Source of the DNA: Rheinheimera sp. 1928-s
GTDB lineage: Bacteria; Pseudomonadota; Gammaproteobacteria; Enterobacterales; Alteromonadaceae
DNA length: 64,000 nucleotides
NCBI RefSeq assembly: GCF_029269265.1
Contig: NZ_JARIXP010000005.1
Coordinates: forward strand, 353,028 to 417,027
Reading direction: 5' to 3'
Positions within the stretch are counted from its first letter, which is position 1. Every line of letters begins with the position of its first letter. Under the pieces are notes generated by a model. It was not told where the DNA came from, searched no databases, and was given only the letters and a program-made list of their open reading frames with translations. Positions 29,336-56,621 of the stretch are shown here, piece after piece. The position numbers and the translations under genes are program-made.

Positions 29336-30034
29336 ATGTGGCTGAATGAACAGCAAATCACCAGTACTGCGATCCGCGCTTATCGAAAGACTTTATTGCA
29401 CTCCAGTCCCAATCATATCGTGATTGATCATTTATTTGATCACAACAAACTCGCTGAAGTAATTCATGTTTTGCAGCAAGAACAGCATTGGAAAACCCAA
29501 AAACATAGCTACTCTGCTTTATATGTGAATGATGAAAAATGGCAAAAAACTCCCGACACCCAACGTTTTGTGCAGAGAGATCTTTGGGACCGCTCCGCGC
29601 TTTCTGCTGACGAAAGTCCTTCATCAGCTATAGCTCATCAGTTTTTGTCATATATACGTGGCGATGAATTTATGTCTTTGTTATCACGTATCTTTCGTGT
29701 GCAGATAACAGATATAAACGTAGCGAAACCAGAGATTAATACTAATTATTTTCGCTTAAGTGCCAACGATTTTGTCAATCAACACGCGGATGATTCACCG
29801 GGCAGAGAAATTTGTATGCTGCTTTATTTAAATAAAGACTGGCAGCACGATCAGGGTGGTGAACTGGTGTTTATGGGGAAGGATGATACACCCGTGACTA
29901 TAGCGCCTTTATACAACCGCTGCGTGTTGTTTGATCCGTCATCAGAGGGCTCTGAGCACTGGGTAAAGGCCGTGACTAGTGAAGGTGCCACTGCGTATCG
30001 CTATAACGTGACTAGTTGGTATTGGTCTGAGTGA
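29336..30034 (+). CDS. 2-oxoglutarate/Fe(II)-dependent oxygenase (prolyl 4-hydroxylase-like)
   Basis: 232 residues, cytoplasmic. A double-stranded beta-helix core has the iron facial triad His150-x-Asp152 (NQHADDSPGR) and a distal His near 208 (GSEHWVKAV), followed by an Arg near 222 (AYRYNVTSW) that would hold 2-oxoglutarate. MLLYLNKDWQHDQGGELVFM is the usual mid-domain segment of 2OG-Fe(II) prolyl 4-hydroxylase-like enzymes. It presumably hydroxylates a protein or small molecule; the substrate is unknown. Single gene. A dense set of hairpins and tRNA-Ser-like repeats follows 23 bases after its stop. Confidence 0.75.
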   Translation: MWLNEQQITSTAIRAYRKTLLHSSPNHIVIDHLFDHNKLAEVIHVLQQEQHWKTQKHSYSALYVNDEKWQKTPDTQRFVQRDLWDRSALSADESPSSAIAHQFLSYIRGDEFMSLLSRIFRVQITDINVAKPEINTNYFRLSANDFVNQHADDSPGREICMLLYLNKDWQHDQGGELVFMGKDDTPVTIAPLYNRCVLFDPSSEGSEHWVKAVTSEGATAYRYNVTSWYWSE

Positions 30035-31635: not shown

Positions 31636-31711
31636 TGGTGGGTCATGATGGATTCGAACCATCGACCAACGGATTAAAAGTCCGCTGCTCTACCAGCTGA
31701 GCTAATGACCC
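31636..31711 (-). tRNA. tRNA-Lys (TTT), copy 4 in transcription order
   Basis: 76 bases with encoded CCA; anticodon loop CTTTTAA. The T arm is the standard GATGG TTCGAAT CCATC. Confidence 0.95.
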
Positions 31712-31732
31712 ATGCAAGGAGAATCGAGAAAG

Positions 31733-31808
31733 TGGTGGGTCATGATGGATTCGAACCATCGACCAACGGATTAAAAGTCCGCTGCTCTACCAGCTGAGCT
31801 AATGACCC
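31733..31808 (-). tRNA. tRNA-Lys (TTT), copy 3 in transcription order
   Basis: 76 bases, identical in sequence to the copy at 31636, with the standard T arm (G53-C61). It is separated from that copy by 21 bases. Confidence 0.95.
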
Positions 31809-31825
31809 AAACAAGGGTATCGAAG

Positions 31826-31901
31826 TGGTGGGTCATGATGAATTCGAATCATCGACCAACGGATTAAAAGTCCGCTGCTCTACCAGCTGAGCTAATGACC
31901 C
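31826..31901 (-). tRNA. tRNA-Lys (TTT), copy 2, variant T stem
   Basis: 76 bases with the same anticodon and body, but the T arm is GATGA TTCGAAT TCATC. The near-invariant G53-C61 pair is replaced by A53-U61. Confidence 0.93.
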
Positions 31902-31928
31902 AGTTCGATACAAAAGTTTGCGCGGGAG

Positions 31929-32004
31929 TGGTGGGTCATGATGAATTCGAATCATCGACCAACGGATTAAAAGTCCGCTGCTCTACCAGCTGAGCTAATG
32001 ACCC
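31929..32004 (-). tRNA. tRNA-Lys (TTT), copy 1, variant T stem
   Basis: 76 bases, identical to the copy at 31826 and with the same A53-U61 T-stem pair. It is the promoter-proximal gene of the four-gene array. Confidence 0.93.
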
Positions 32005-36471: not shown

Positions 36472-37154
36472 TAGTTGTTTTCTCCGTTGGCCATTGCCTG
36501 ACGGTGCAGAATGTTGGCGAACTCTTCAACAAAGTTTGCGTACGCACTTTCTAGCATTTCCACTTTATGAGAAAACTTGTTGTAAGCAATTACAGCCGGG
36601 ATAGCGGCAAATAAGCCTATAGCTGTTGCGATCAACGCTTCAGCTATACCTGGAGCAACCATAGCCAATGTGGCTTGTTGTACAGCACCTAAAGCGATAA
36701 AGGAGTTCATGATACCCCAGACGGTGCCAAACAAGCCGATGTAAGGGCTGATTGACCCCACAGTAGCCAAAAATGGTAAATGCATTTCCAGACGCTCTAC
36801 TTCACGCGACAAACCAACACGCATAGCGCGTTGAGTGCCCTCCATCACAGCACCGGATTGACGGCTGTTTTTATGTAAACGGGCAAACTCTTTAAAGCCT
36901 GCTTTAAACAGAGCTTCCACACCGTTCACTGTGACTTTAGCGCTGACTTCATTGTACAGTTTGGATAAGTCGATACCTGACCAAAACTTGTCTTCAAATT
37001 GTTTTGTCTCTTCAACTGCAATACTCAGAGCTTTGTTGCGTTGAATGATCATCGCCCACGACATCACAGACATGCCCACCAACAGCAACATAACCAGCTG
37101 CACTACTACACTAGCGTGAAGAATTAGATCAATAACTGATAGTCCGCCTGTCAC
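36471..37154 (-). CDS. tolQ: Tol-Pal inner-membrane motor protein TolQ (ExbB/MotA family)
   Basis: 227 residues from a GTG start at 37154 that overlaps the end of ybgC by 26 bases. It has three membrane helices: one near the N-terminus ([20 protein letters not shown]) and two after a large cytoplasmic loop ([20 protein letters not shown] and [19 protein letters not shown]), the latter two bearing the small and polar residues that line the proton path. Five TolQ surround two TolR helices. It powers outer-membrane constriction during division. Confidence 0.96.
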
Positions 37155-37554
37155 CTGATAACACCCCTAAAACGTCGCGAGGTATTGCACTCGCTTTCAT
37201 TAATGATAGTTTTACGCAAGCAATACTAACCTGCGCTGAACAAAGCAATTCTGCATCTGCGTTGTAGATTTCCTGCCAAAATACCAAACTGGCCCTTTTT
37301 AACTGTCTAATCTCACTTTTTACTAACAGAAGCTGATTAAACCTGCCTGGTTTGTGGTTGTCCATCTGCACGCTTTTCACAACAAAACCAATGTCCTGAC
37401 TAAGCAAGAGGTCTTGTTCTATTCCTAAACTTCTAAGCCATTCTGTTCTGGCTCTTTCAAAGAATTTCAGATAGTTAGCATAATATACTACGCCACCCGC
37501 ATCGGTGTCTTCGTAATATACTCTGACCGGAAACTCGAACACCTCAAGCATCAT
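37129..37554 (-). CDS. ybgC: YbgC acyl-CoA thioesterase
   Basis: 141 residues with the hot-dog fold of 4-hydroxybenzoyl-CoA thioesterase-like proteins. The active-site segment [20 protein letters not shown] contains the catalytic Asp, followed by [14 protein letters not shown]. YbgC hydrolyses acyl-CoA or acyl-ACP thioesters in the cytosol and is tied to phospholipid metabolism. It is the first gene of the tol-pal operon in most Gammaproteobacteria, as here. Two adjacent ATG codons exist and the first is used. A good sigma-70 promoter lies 28 bases upstream. Confidence 0.93.
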
Positions 37555-37610: not shown

Positions 37611-37928
37611 CAGGGCGACCCTTACCGGAGTTAAAAATATTTTACTTTTACAGCCATTTTGACTGATTAAAAAAACTCTGGGTCTTATATTCATAAAAAG
37701 TTTCATCTTCACGGCAGAAGGGGAAAAAATAGCGACTAATGACCATTTTACTCAGTCAGATAAATTTTGCTCAAAAAATAGTAATTCGGAGCAAACATTC
37801 ACCCCGTTCAGCGCCCCTTAATTTTCAAGGCCTGGCGATATAGCGACCACAAAATGAGATTAAAATTCACACAAAACCACTATTTATTCAGATTAAAAAA
37901 AGTAATTCGAAATCTCAATTTTTCTAGT
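37611..37928. other. AT-rich gap between divergent ybgC and small-RNA promoters
   Basis: No coding frame supported. It contains poly-A/T stretches and two copies of AGTAATTCG (37780 and 37901) following A-runs. Regulatory sites for either promoter may lie here, but I cannot name any. Confidence 0.5.
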
Positions 37929-37957
37929 TTGAAGTAAATGCACTAACTCCCTAAAAT
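37929..37957 (+). promoter_or_regulatory. Sigma-70 promoter of the candidate small RNA
   Basis: -35 TTGAAG (37929-37934), exact 17-base spacer, -10 TAAAAT (37952-37957). The expected start is near 37964. No plus-strand coding gene follows, only the stem-loop region ending at 38138. Confidence 0.6.
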
Positions 37958-37963
37958 GCCCCG

Positions 37964-38138
37964 GTGTTCTGAGCTAGCGCAAAAGTTTCGGCCCTTGTGC
38001 CCCAACTTTAGTGATGAATACTGGTGATGTGATTATCTGTTCGAAGATGGTCATGTTGCTTCTCAACATGTTCCCTGGATTTTGAAGATTTACTTCAACT
38101 TGTTGCATTCGCCCGCTAATTTAGCGGGCTTTTTTTTT
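37964..38138 (+). ncRNA. Candidate trans-acting small RNA between ybgC and ruvB
   Basis: About 175 bases run from a good promoter to a strong U-tract terminator, on the strand opposite to both neighbours. Four local stem-loops can be read directly: AAAGTT (37982) / AACTTT (38004) with an inner GGC/GCC; CATGTTG (38052) / CAACATG (38064); TTGAAG (38082) / CTTCAA (38093); and the terminator stem. Unpaired stretches such as GTGATGTGATTATCTG could pair with targets. A nine-U tail fits Hfq binding. The only frame of note is 23 codons at 38014 and lacks a ribosome-binding site. It matches none of Spot 42, RyhB, GcvB or 6S that I could recall. Confidence 0.6.
38111..38138 (+). terminator. Strong plus-strand terminator of the small RNA
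   Basis: Nine-base stem GCCCGCTAA/TTAGCGGGC with a one-base centre (four-base loop in practice), then nine T. There is no T-run on the other strand, so it is unidirectional. Confidence 0.85.
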
Positions 38139-38201
38139 CGGTAAAATCCAAAGTCTAAGTCTGCCAGCAGACTTCCCCACTGGCAGCAAGCCAAGGTATC
38201 G

Positions 38202-39212
38202 TTAATTCGACTCTGGTAAATCAAAACCAAAATGTTTATAGGCTGCTGGTGAGACGATGCGGCCTCGTGGTGTGCGCTGGATAAAACCTTGTTGGATTAA
38301 AAAAGGTTCTATTACATCTTCGATGGTTTCTTTCTCTTCACCTATAGCGGCAGCCAGGTTATCCAGTCCGACAGGACCGCCACCGAACTTTTCGATAATA
38401 CTCAGCATTAACTTTCTGTCCATATAGTCAAAACCACTGGCGTCGACATCCACCATATGTAAAGCGGCTGAGGCAATTTCAACAGGTACCAAACCACTGG
38501 ACTTCACCTGTGCATAATCACGCACCCGTCTTAAAAGACGGTTAGCAATACGAGGTGTACCACGGGAACGTCGGGCAATTTCTGTTGCTGCAGGCAGTTC
38601 CAGCTCTAAATTCAGATAGTGCGCTGAGCGTAAAATAATTTGTGCCAGTTCATCAACTTTATAAAACTCCAGTCGTTGCACTATGCCAAAGCGGTCACGT
38701 AGTGGCGAAGTTAAAGCGCCAGCTCTGGTGGTTGCGCCTATTAAGGTGAAAGGCGGTAACTCCAGCTTGATAGAACGGGCAGCAGGCCCCTCGCCTATCA
38801 TAATATCCAGCTGATAGTCTTCCATCGCCGGGTATAAAATCTCTTCCACTACAGGGCTTAAGCGGTGAATTTCATCAATAAAAAGTACATCGTTGGGTTC
38901 GAGGTTGGTTAGAAGCGCCGCTAAATCACCGGCTTTTTCAAGCACAGGACCTGAGGTGTTTTTAATATTCACACCCATTTCATTGGCAACCACCATCGCA
39001 AGGGTGGTTTTACCTAAACCCGGCGGACCAAAAATGAGCAGATGATCCAAAGGCTCACCACGACCGCGGGCCGCTTCAATAAAAATAGCCATTTGCTCTT
39101 TCACATGACTCTGGCCTGTGTAATCGGCCAGTGATTTTGGCCGAATGGCGCGGTCAATCAGCTCATCTTCGCGACTGGCTTTGGTATCGATCAGACGATC
39201 GGCTTCTATCAT
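38202..39212 (-). CDS. ruvB: Holliday junction branch migration helicase RuvB
   Basis: 336 residues, the usual length. AAA+ core with Walker [10 protein letters not shown], Walker B FIDEIHRL, sensor-1 [18 protein letters not shown] and arginine-finger region, then a C-terminal winged helix ([20 protein letters not shown]). Two RuvB hexamers pump DNA through the RuvA-bound junction during recombination repair. Downstream of ruvC and ruvA in one leftward cluster. A LexA box was not seen. Confidence 0.97.
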
Positions 39213-56238: not shown

Positions 56239-56315
56239 TGGTCGGTGATGCAAGATTCGAACTTGCGACCCCTTGGACCCAAACCAAGTGCGCTACCAAG
56301 CTGCGCTAATCACCG
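56239..56315 (-). tRNA. tRNA-Pro (TGG), second copy
   Basis: 77 bases with CCA encoded; acceptor CGGTGAT/ATCACCG, anticodon arm CTTGG TTTGGGT CCAAG (anticodon TGG). Identical to the copy at 56545. Confidence 0.95.
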
Positions 56316-56335
56316 ACATATAAACCAGTCTAAAA

Positions 56336-56412
56336 TGGGGTGGCTGATGGGGCTCGAACCCACGACAACCGGAATCACAATCCGGGACTCTACCAACTGA
56401 GCTACAGCCACC
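56336..56412 (-). tRNA. tRNA-His (GTG)
   Basis: Acceptor GTGGCTG/CAGCCAC, anticodon arm CCGGA TTGTGAT TCCGG (anticodon GTG), encoded CCA. The base before position 1 is G and pairs with C73, giving the G-1 identity element of histidine tRNA. Confidence 0.95.
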
Positions 56413-56438
56413 ACGGTAGAACTTTCTTCATGTTGCAA

Positions 56439-56515
<77 letters not shown>

Positions 56516-56544
56516 CAAATTCGAGGCCGTTAGGCTCTCTTAAA

Positions 56545-56621
56545 TGGTCGGTGATGCAAGATTCGAACTTGCGACCCCTTGGACCCAAACCAAGTGCGCT
56601 ACCAAGCTGCGCTAATCACCG
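56545..56621 (-). tRNA. tRNA-Pro (TGG), first copy
   Basis: 77 bases, identical to the copy at 56239. It is the promoter-proximal gene. Its TGG anticodon is an expected target of the CmoAB modification encoded at 47020-48722. Confidence 0.95.

Follow-up and report, generated by a model that had tools for sequence, protein, structure and literature searches.

A small RNA (sRNA) gene of about 175 nt lies between ybgC and ruvB in Rheinheimera sp. 1928-s, and the sequences of this gene and its relatives make it likely that the product is a trans-acting pairing RNA, controlled by GcvA and probably dependent on Hfq, in the network position of GcvB. Few bacterial small RNAs have been studied as thoroughly as GcvB. 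We read the gene as a GcvA-controlled sRNA in place of GcvB, its descent being unsettled. The window, that is, the whole stretch of DNA that was analyzed, comprises 64,000 nt, and coordinates refer to it.

An sRNA gene between ybgC and ruvB

The locus contains the following features:

37129..37554, minus strand: ybgC, neighbor, encoding a tol-pal associated thioesterase (NCBIfam TIGR02799, 155.6 bits; cut-off, 141.35)
37892..37906, plus strand: GcvA-type box ATTAAAAAAAGTAAT (ATTA-N7-TAAT, 8/8), centered ~65 nt upstream of the inferred start
37929..37957, plus strand: σ70-type promoter, TTGAAG (37929-37934), 17-nt spacer, TAAAAT (37952-37957); kept in the genus
37964..38138, plus strand: sRNA gene, ~175 nt; start inferred from −10 spacing and the onset of conservation
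37964..37981, plus strand: conserved 5′ block GTGTTCTGAGCTAGCGCA (genus alignment)
38023..38060, plus strand: central hairpin, strong in this species; sequence not conserved genus-wide
38066..38079, plus strand: conserved core ACATGTTCCCTGGA, a likely (predicted) pairing site
38093..38106, plus strand: conserved block CTTCAACTTGTTGC just before the terminator (alignments of relatives)
38111..38138, plus strand: intrinsic terminator, GC-rich stem GCCCGCTAATTTAGCGGGC (38111-38129) followed by nine T (38130-38138)
38202..39212, minus strand: ruvB, neighbor (NCBIfam TIGR00635, 479.9 bits; cut-off, 299.05)

The first-pass annotation of this DNA had proposed an sRNA gene here, and both the sequence and our scans agree with its promoter (TTGAAG-17-TAAAAT), its ~175 noncoding nt, and its nine-T terminator. 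It had also put the nearest upstream plus-strand gene almost 8 kb away; the closest such open reading frame (ORF) of at least 90 amino acids (aa) does end at 30034, 7.9 kb off. By consensus alone the promoter is unremarkable and near chance: 3 kb held 9 promoter-like sites versus 5.0 (standard deviation [SD], 2.5) in shuffled sequence, and 5 terminator-like sites versus 2.9 (SD, 1.9). The 175-nt RNA has a folding energy of −52.6 kcal/mol (z = −3.5), and none of 200 shuffles was equally stable. Although promoter consensus alone is near chance, the sRNA gene is real because it is conserved across relatives: promoter, inner blocks, and terminator are kept across the family, which bears out the proposal of an sRNA gene.

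Short open frames are present at the locus, for example one from an ATG within the core, and these would be the basis for regarding it as a small protein gene or a dual-function RNA. We consider that very improbable: no ribosome-binding sequence was seen ahead of the core ATG frame, the frame after ATGTTCCCTGGA is disrupted by 1-nt differences among relatives that retain the bases themselves, and the run of T after TTCCCTGGA is 4, 5, or 6 long among relatives, which breaks the reading frame. An ORF listing down to 30 aa showed none of at least 60 aa in the ybgC-ruvB gap.

Rfam at gathering score returned nine tRNAs over the window and nothing else, and the earlier statement that the RNA matches no known small RNA family is true at those scores; a weak match to GcvB (RF00022; 21.7 bits at the locus, below the gathering cut-off of 42 bits) became our lead. 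Two clusters of four tRNA genes each lie on the minus strand at 31639-32004 and 56242-56621, and their repeated scores suggest a recent duplication.

Conservation across the family

With 37900-38150 as the blastn query, the element was found in all 22 same-genus genomes, its own included, and four further genera of the family matched through the 3′ part (E < 0.001); two near relatives are 97% identical over the element. Among genus copies, GTGTTCTGAGCTAGCGCA, ACATGTTCCCTGGA, and CTTCAACTTGTTGC stand near-invariant inside a drifting background. The 5′ block GTGTTCTGAGCTAGCGCA starts 7 nt past the −10 hexamer (some genus copies have CA for AG), and we did not see it in certain genera (L067 and L070-L073 are examples).

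A covariance search had been proposed by the first-pass annotation, and a custom model of the 3′ domain (model R1) matched 166 of 196 family genomes, in 48 of 52 genera, at E ≤ 0.01, the weakest of these family matches overlapping the 28 to 37 bits reached by unrelated genomes; 132 family genomes score at least 37 bits. Order-wide, 113 of 394 genomes matched, those outside the family mostly at 28 to 37 bits, which we read as terminators. The exception is one genome (G114, 45.2 bits, L083) whose locus also has a GcvA box. A search for both inner blocks as a DNA pattern gave at least 119 stretches; carriers among the matches listed include Rheinheimera, Alishewanella, Arsukibacterium, Alkalimonas, Alteromonas, Salinimonas, Bowmanella, Lacimicrobium, Aestuariibacter, Marisediminitalea, and Pseudoalteromonas, and 6 of the at least 119 stretches, named outside the group, are probably chance matches.

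The structure is conserved as well, in an alignment of 68 distinct sequences that was fitted to the structure and so favors it. Standard pairs fill 93.5% of pair cells, 14 of 19 pairs are changed on both sides, and none of 500 shuffles equals the alignment on any one of five structure measures; sliding the partner by 1 to 3 columns drops pairing to 37 to 44%. Most covariation sits in the terminator helix (7 of 8 pairs changed on both sides); the outer stem, which would display the TTCCCTGGA core, pairs less well (84%). Of the stems and terminator named in the first-pass annotation, the terminator helix shows many compensatory changes among relatives; the sequence of the central hairpin drifts within the genus.

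The place of the gene is also kept. We examined 197 loci, counting duplicates: ybgC and ruvB flank the sRNA in 91 and tolQ and ruvB in 50, and it always lies on the strand opposite both; 39 more have one such neighbor within 700 nt, the other side being too short in 15 and unrecognized in 24. In 12 loci the core was not recognized by our script, and 5 have neither neighbor. The core was located in 185 of the 197 loci, and at no such locus is gcvA the nearest recognized neighbor within 700 nt; the host's own gcvA sits on another contig. In a distant clade of the genus (L013-L022) no ybgC match was found and tolQ is the sRNA's nearest recognized neighbor.

The sRNA gene is antisense to both ybgC and ruvB, an arrangement that could allow cis-antisense control of either gene through read-through or overlap. 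We give this hardly any weight: coding overlap is lacking at both ends, since the strong terminator ends the sRNA 63 nt short of the ruvB ORF and its start lies 409 nt from the ybgC start codon, and extra sequence sets the sRNA farther from ruvB in several relatives. Among near relatives (L002-L012), several of which have this longer sRNA-ruvB gap, differing short repeat-like, partly palindromic sequences start exactly at the end of the T-run; they may be REP-type or MITE insertions at terminators.

A GcvA box upstream of the sRNA gene

GcvA is a LysR-type, glycine-responsive regulator. Published accounts give its site as ATTA-n7-TAAT and ATTAG-n5-CTAAT (PMC5002191) or as T-N11-A with CTAAT (PMC3658693), predict that GcvA binds E. 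coli gcvB at positions −65 and −43, and describe gcvB as activated by GcvA with glycine (PMC5002191). In E. coli MG1655, we find the box ATTAGTTTTTTTAAT centered at −65 of annotated gcvB.

All 61 nonredundant promoters of the sRNA have the box, always at −65 to −68 (8/8 in 53 and 7/8 in 8); this set holds only copies having the 5′ block, and its reference base is the second of GTGTTCTG, the inferred start. In 72 loci selected only through their 3′ domain, whether or not the 5′ block is present (72 of 74 matches, the duplicates L137 and L199 being left out), the best box 70 to 260 nt upstream was 8/8 in 61 and 7/8 in 11; by background, 190 nt would hold an 8/8 box in 3.8% of cases and one of at least 7/8 in 16.9%. 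A −10-like hexamer lies 51 to 55 nt from the box center in 71 of the 72. Because the same box also precedes the gcvA loci of the family (8/8 within 150 nt upstream in 25 of 29; the 30th, L316, was left out as too short), as well as the host's own gcvA and gcvT (8/8 in both, and ~220 nt upstream of gcvT), ATTA-N7-TAAT very likely serves these bacteria as the GcvA box and is not a mere AT-rich palindrome. It is position and conservation that carry weight here: three genomes contain 4, 6, and 2 exact matches to ATTAG-N5-CTAAT, against 2, 4, and 10 for the pattern read backwards, so that genome-wide counts prove nothing.

The host protein (L303) is 68% identical to E. coli GcvA and scores 459.7 bits against NF008352 (cut-off, 288), and we take it to be a true GcvA. 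GcvA over the cut-off was present in 20 of 20 genomes with a match to the 3′ model and in 16 of 20 without one, the latter drawn from the 30 that lack a model R1 match; co-occurrence of the sRNA with GcvA is weak. Two near-complete family genomes (G225 and G376) have neither a GcvA match at E ≤ 1e−60 nor a match to the sRNA model.

The first-pass annotation had guessed from the place beside tol-pal that the RNA acts in envelope control. That place beside ybgC or tolQ is indeed conserved, as counted above, but the promoter evidence ties the sRNA to GcvA: the gene carries a separate promoter and terminator, on the strand opposite its neighbors, the regulator box before it is that of GcvA, and our analysis found no link to envelope stress. 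An envelope regulator linked to tol-pal therefore seems improbable to us.

Relationship to GcvB

A permissive Rfam scan of the region gave 20 weak matches, many to terminator-bearing families, with the best E-value for anti-hemB (0.0014) and the next for GcvB (0.012). At two homologous loci the GcvB model scored 29.7 and 20.2 bits, again below cut-off. Searched anywhere in the genome, GcvB over the cut-off was found in 0 of 98 family genomes; in a draw of 197 genomes of the order it was found in 45, and in 0 of the 14 family genomes of that draw. In one family genome, a locus (L248, G435:C6:1589707-1590338) has three weak GcvB-model matches in tandem (31 to 38 bits).

The core TGTTGTGTTTG, which we take to be the R1 seed of GcvB, occurs without mismatch in all 30 GcvB loci that score over the cut-off. 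None of the 59 full-length sRNA copies, counted only among those with the 5′ block, has it within 1 mismatch; all show 2 to 4 mismatches. Because it is without this seed, the sRNA is, on its sequence, not filed as GcvB.

The sRNA and GcvB share several features. Both have ATTA-N7-TAAT at equal distance from the start, a similar spacer, and the first bases TTC(C)TGAGC; size is comparable, and each has stem-loops and a strong terminator. The Rfam alignment of one copy sets TTCCTGGA against the CTTCCTGTA block of GcvB. The sRNA differs in that it lacks the GU-rich R1 seed, scores below gathering, does not sit beside gcvA, and has 3′ blocks of its own.

To compare promoters, we took a profile of the sRNA promoter from −90 to +18 and searched 45 loci that match the GcvB model, namely E. 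coli and 44 loci of other families, of which four (L298-L301) are doubtful. In the window, the profile found the sRNA gene at E = 1.1e−23, the next match being at 3.2. Its top 28 matches among the GcvB loci are all gcvB promoters on the correct strand, 17 within 3 nt of the GcvB-model start and the other 11 no more than 56 nt from it (where the model begins differs from family to family); the best E-value was 1.2e−6, and that of E. coli was 0.0054. In all, 41 of the 45 loci were found, many only at E-values of 0.1 to 1.5 among other matches, and none of the promoters at L298-L301, where the GcvB matches are weak, is among the profile's best 46 matches. The reversed profile gave nothing below E = 4.8 on the GcvB loci. 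With the box removed, the first four matches were still gcvB promoters (E = 0.016, 0.019, 0.062, and 0.55). The best alignment, with GcvB of another family (L280), shares AAATCCCTA before the −10 hexamer and TCTGAGC at the 5′ end.

The profile is not specific to gcvB, because family promoters divergent from gcvA, which drive small protein genes, also score (best E = 5.8e−5): what it recognizes is GcvA-type promoters, not gcvB alone. These matches beside family gcvA make descent from gcvB less likely and convergence more likely.

In E. coli, gcvB sits divergent from gcvA. At this position several family genomes have a GcvA-box promoter followed by a gene for a small, apparently secreted protein (L314, L318, L319, L321, L323, L325, L328, L336, and L340), 86 to 100 aa long in 9 of the 10 read. 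The leader of these genes contains ATAGATGAAGGAC...GTCC...CATCTAT; none of seven such loci matched Rfam at gathering score, and ten leaders together gave a weak consensus fold (a single 5-bp hairpin, −2.4 kcal/mol).

Two accounts of the sRNA's origin have to be weighed, each of which we hold only tentatively. In the first, the sRNA may be a true but strongly diverged GcvB: gcvB would have left its place next to gcvA for the ruvB-ybgC gap in an ancestor of the family, keeping its promoter and first bases and losing the R1 seed. The alignment of promoter and 5′ end with gcvB, including the motifs shared with L280, argues for descent, as do weak GcvB-model matches of 20 to 30 bits on the sRNA locus in four family genomes (G459, G191, G465, and G022). 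Its probability, which we put somewhat short of even, is held down by the 2 to 4 seed mismatches in every copy, by model scores under gathering, by the fact that most weak GcvB-model matches fall elsewhere, both in the window's own genome included, and by a promoter profile that fits other GcvA-controlled promoters too.

In the second account, a new RNA, not descended from gcvB, would have independently acquired a GcvA-type promoter. No clear sequence is common to the two RNA bodies, the genomic place differs from that of gcvB, much of the profile match comes from the box (best E without it, 0.016), and other family genes also have GcvA-box promoters, all of which is consistent with convergence; yet the likeness extends beyond the box to the spacer and the first RNA bases, and this account, too, strikes us as plausible but short of probable. 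Should descent be correct, a relocated gcvB could have kept its GcvA-controlled promoter and 5′ end, with its main seed lost and replaced to give a different target set. That fuller scenario we regard as rather doubtful; if true, it would mean that a conserved sRNA was rewired in nature while its promoter stayed the same.

Predicted regulation and network position

In the reading that we favor, in which the sRNA takes the place of GcvB whatever its descent, LysR-type GcvA would bind ATTA-N7-TAAT ~65 nt upstream of the start, as at E. coli gcvB, and plentiful glycine would lead it to turn on transcription, which would end at the intrinsic terminator. Hfq would probably bind the U-tail, and ACAUGUUCCCUGGA and CUUCAACUUGUUGC would pair with mRNA ribosome-binding sites, mostly repressing; the sRNA would thus fill the network position held by GcvB in enterobacteria and vibrios. 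GcvA activation, the glycine response, Hfq binding, and mRNA pairing are steps that we infer. Since E. coli GcvA represses as well as activates, according to one account (PMC5002191), the sign of control at the sRNA is judged from box position and is most likely activation.

An Hfq-dependent regulator is plausible given the U-tail, the conserved pyrimidine-rich blocks, and the presence of an hfq gene. By its sequence the unit has its own promoter and a Rho-independent terminator with a long U-tail; the host's Hfq scores 102.4 bits (cut-off, 61.7), and the conserved blocks ACAUGUUCCCUGGA and CUUCAACUUGUUGC are both able to pair with a Shine-Dalgarno-like sequence.

We found no standard GcvB in these aquatic bacteria, and our findings suggest that the sRNA serves them in place of GcvB. 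The result for 98 genomes of the Alteromonas/Pseudoalteromonas/Rheinheimera family raises the question of how amino acid uptake is matched to supply there, and the sRNA offers a candidate across the family whose regulator (GcvA) and signal (glycine) can be tested, as well as a case for asking how small RNAs switch targets yet keep their control.

Other RNAs and candidate pairing sites

The sequences TTCCCTGG and ACTTGTTG, presumably the seeds of ArcZ and GlmZ, respectively, resemble two conserved blocks of the sRNA. We regard this as chance likeness: neither RNA is among the 20 matches of the permissive scan, and place and promoter differ. Pf1 to Pf3, the Csr RNAs of Pseudoalteromonas, are likewise intergenic RNAs from bacteria of the same family and carry 9 to 25 GGA motifs (PMC11882849). 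A CsrB-type RNA requires many such motifs, whereas the sRNA has one GGA in 175 nt, and we rejected this assignment. The literature on Pseudoalteromonas, Alteromonas, Rheinheimera, and GcvB, represented mostly by titles and abstract openings, included no account that we recognized of an sRNA of the ybgC-ruvB gap.

GcvB represses amino acid and peptide transporter mRNAs. When an SBP_bac_5 gene was paired with the sRNA in 10 genomes (10 of 11 matches, start codons guessed), it gave no signal and did no better than shuffles (z from −0.72 to +1.92); the test is weak because the shuffles were mononucleotide, the duplexes long, and the start codons guessed.

We also searched 22 genomes for complements of the core with up to 2 mismatches and read eight listed stretches of four recurrent kinds, among which there was no shared 5′ untranslated region (UTR) site complementary to the core. 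Three stretches lie inside one ORF, one inside a clpX-like ORF, two at codons 6 to 10 of a murD-like gene, and two between converging ORFs, the clpX-like and murD-like names having been assigned by reading the sequence; we put forward none of these stretches as a target. The complement at codons 6 to 10 of the murD-like gene (G000:C12:528599-528612, L306) is nine bases long and occurs in near relatives.
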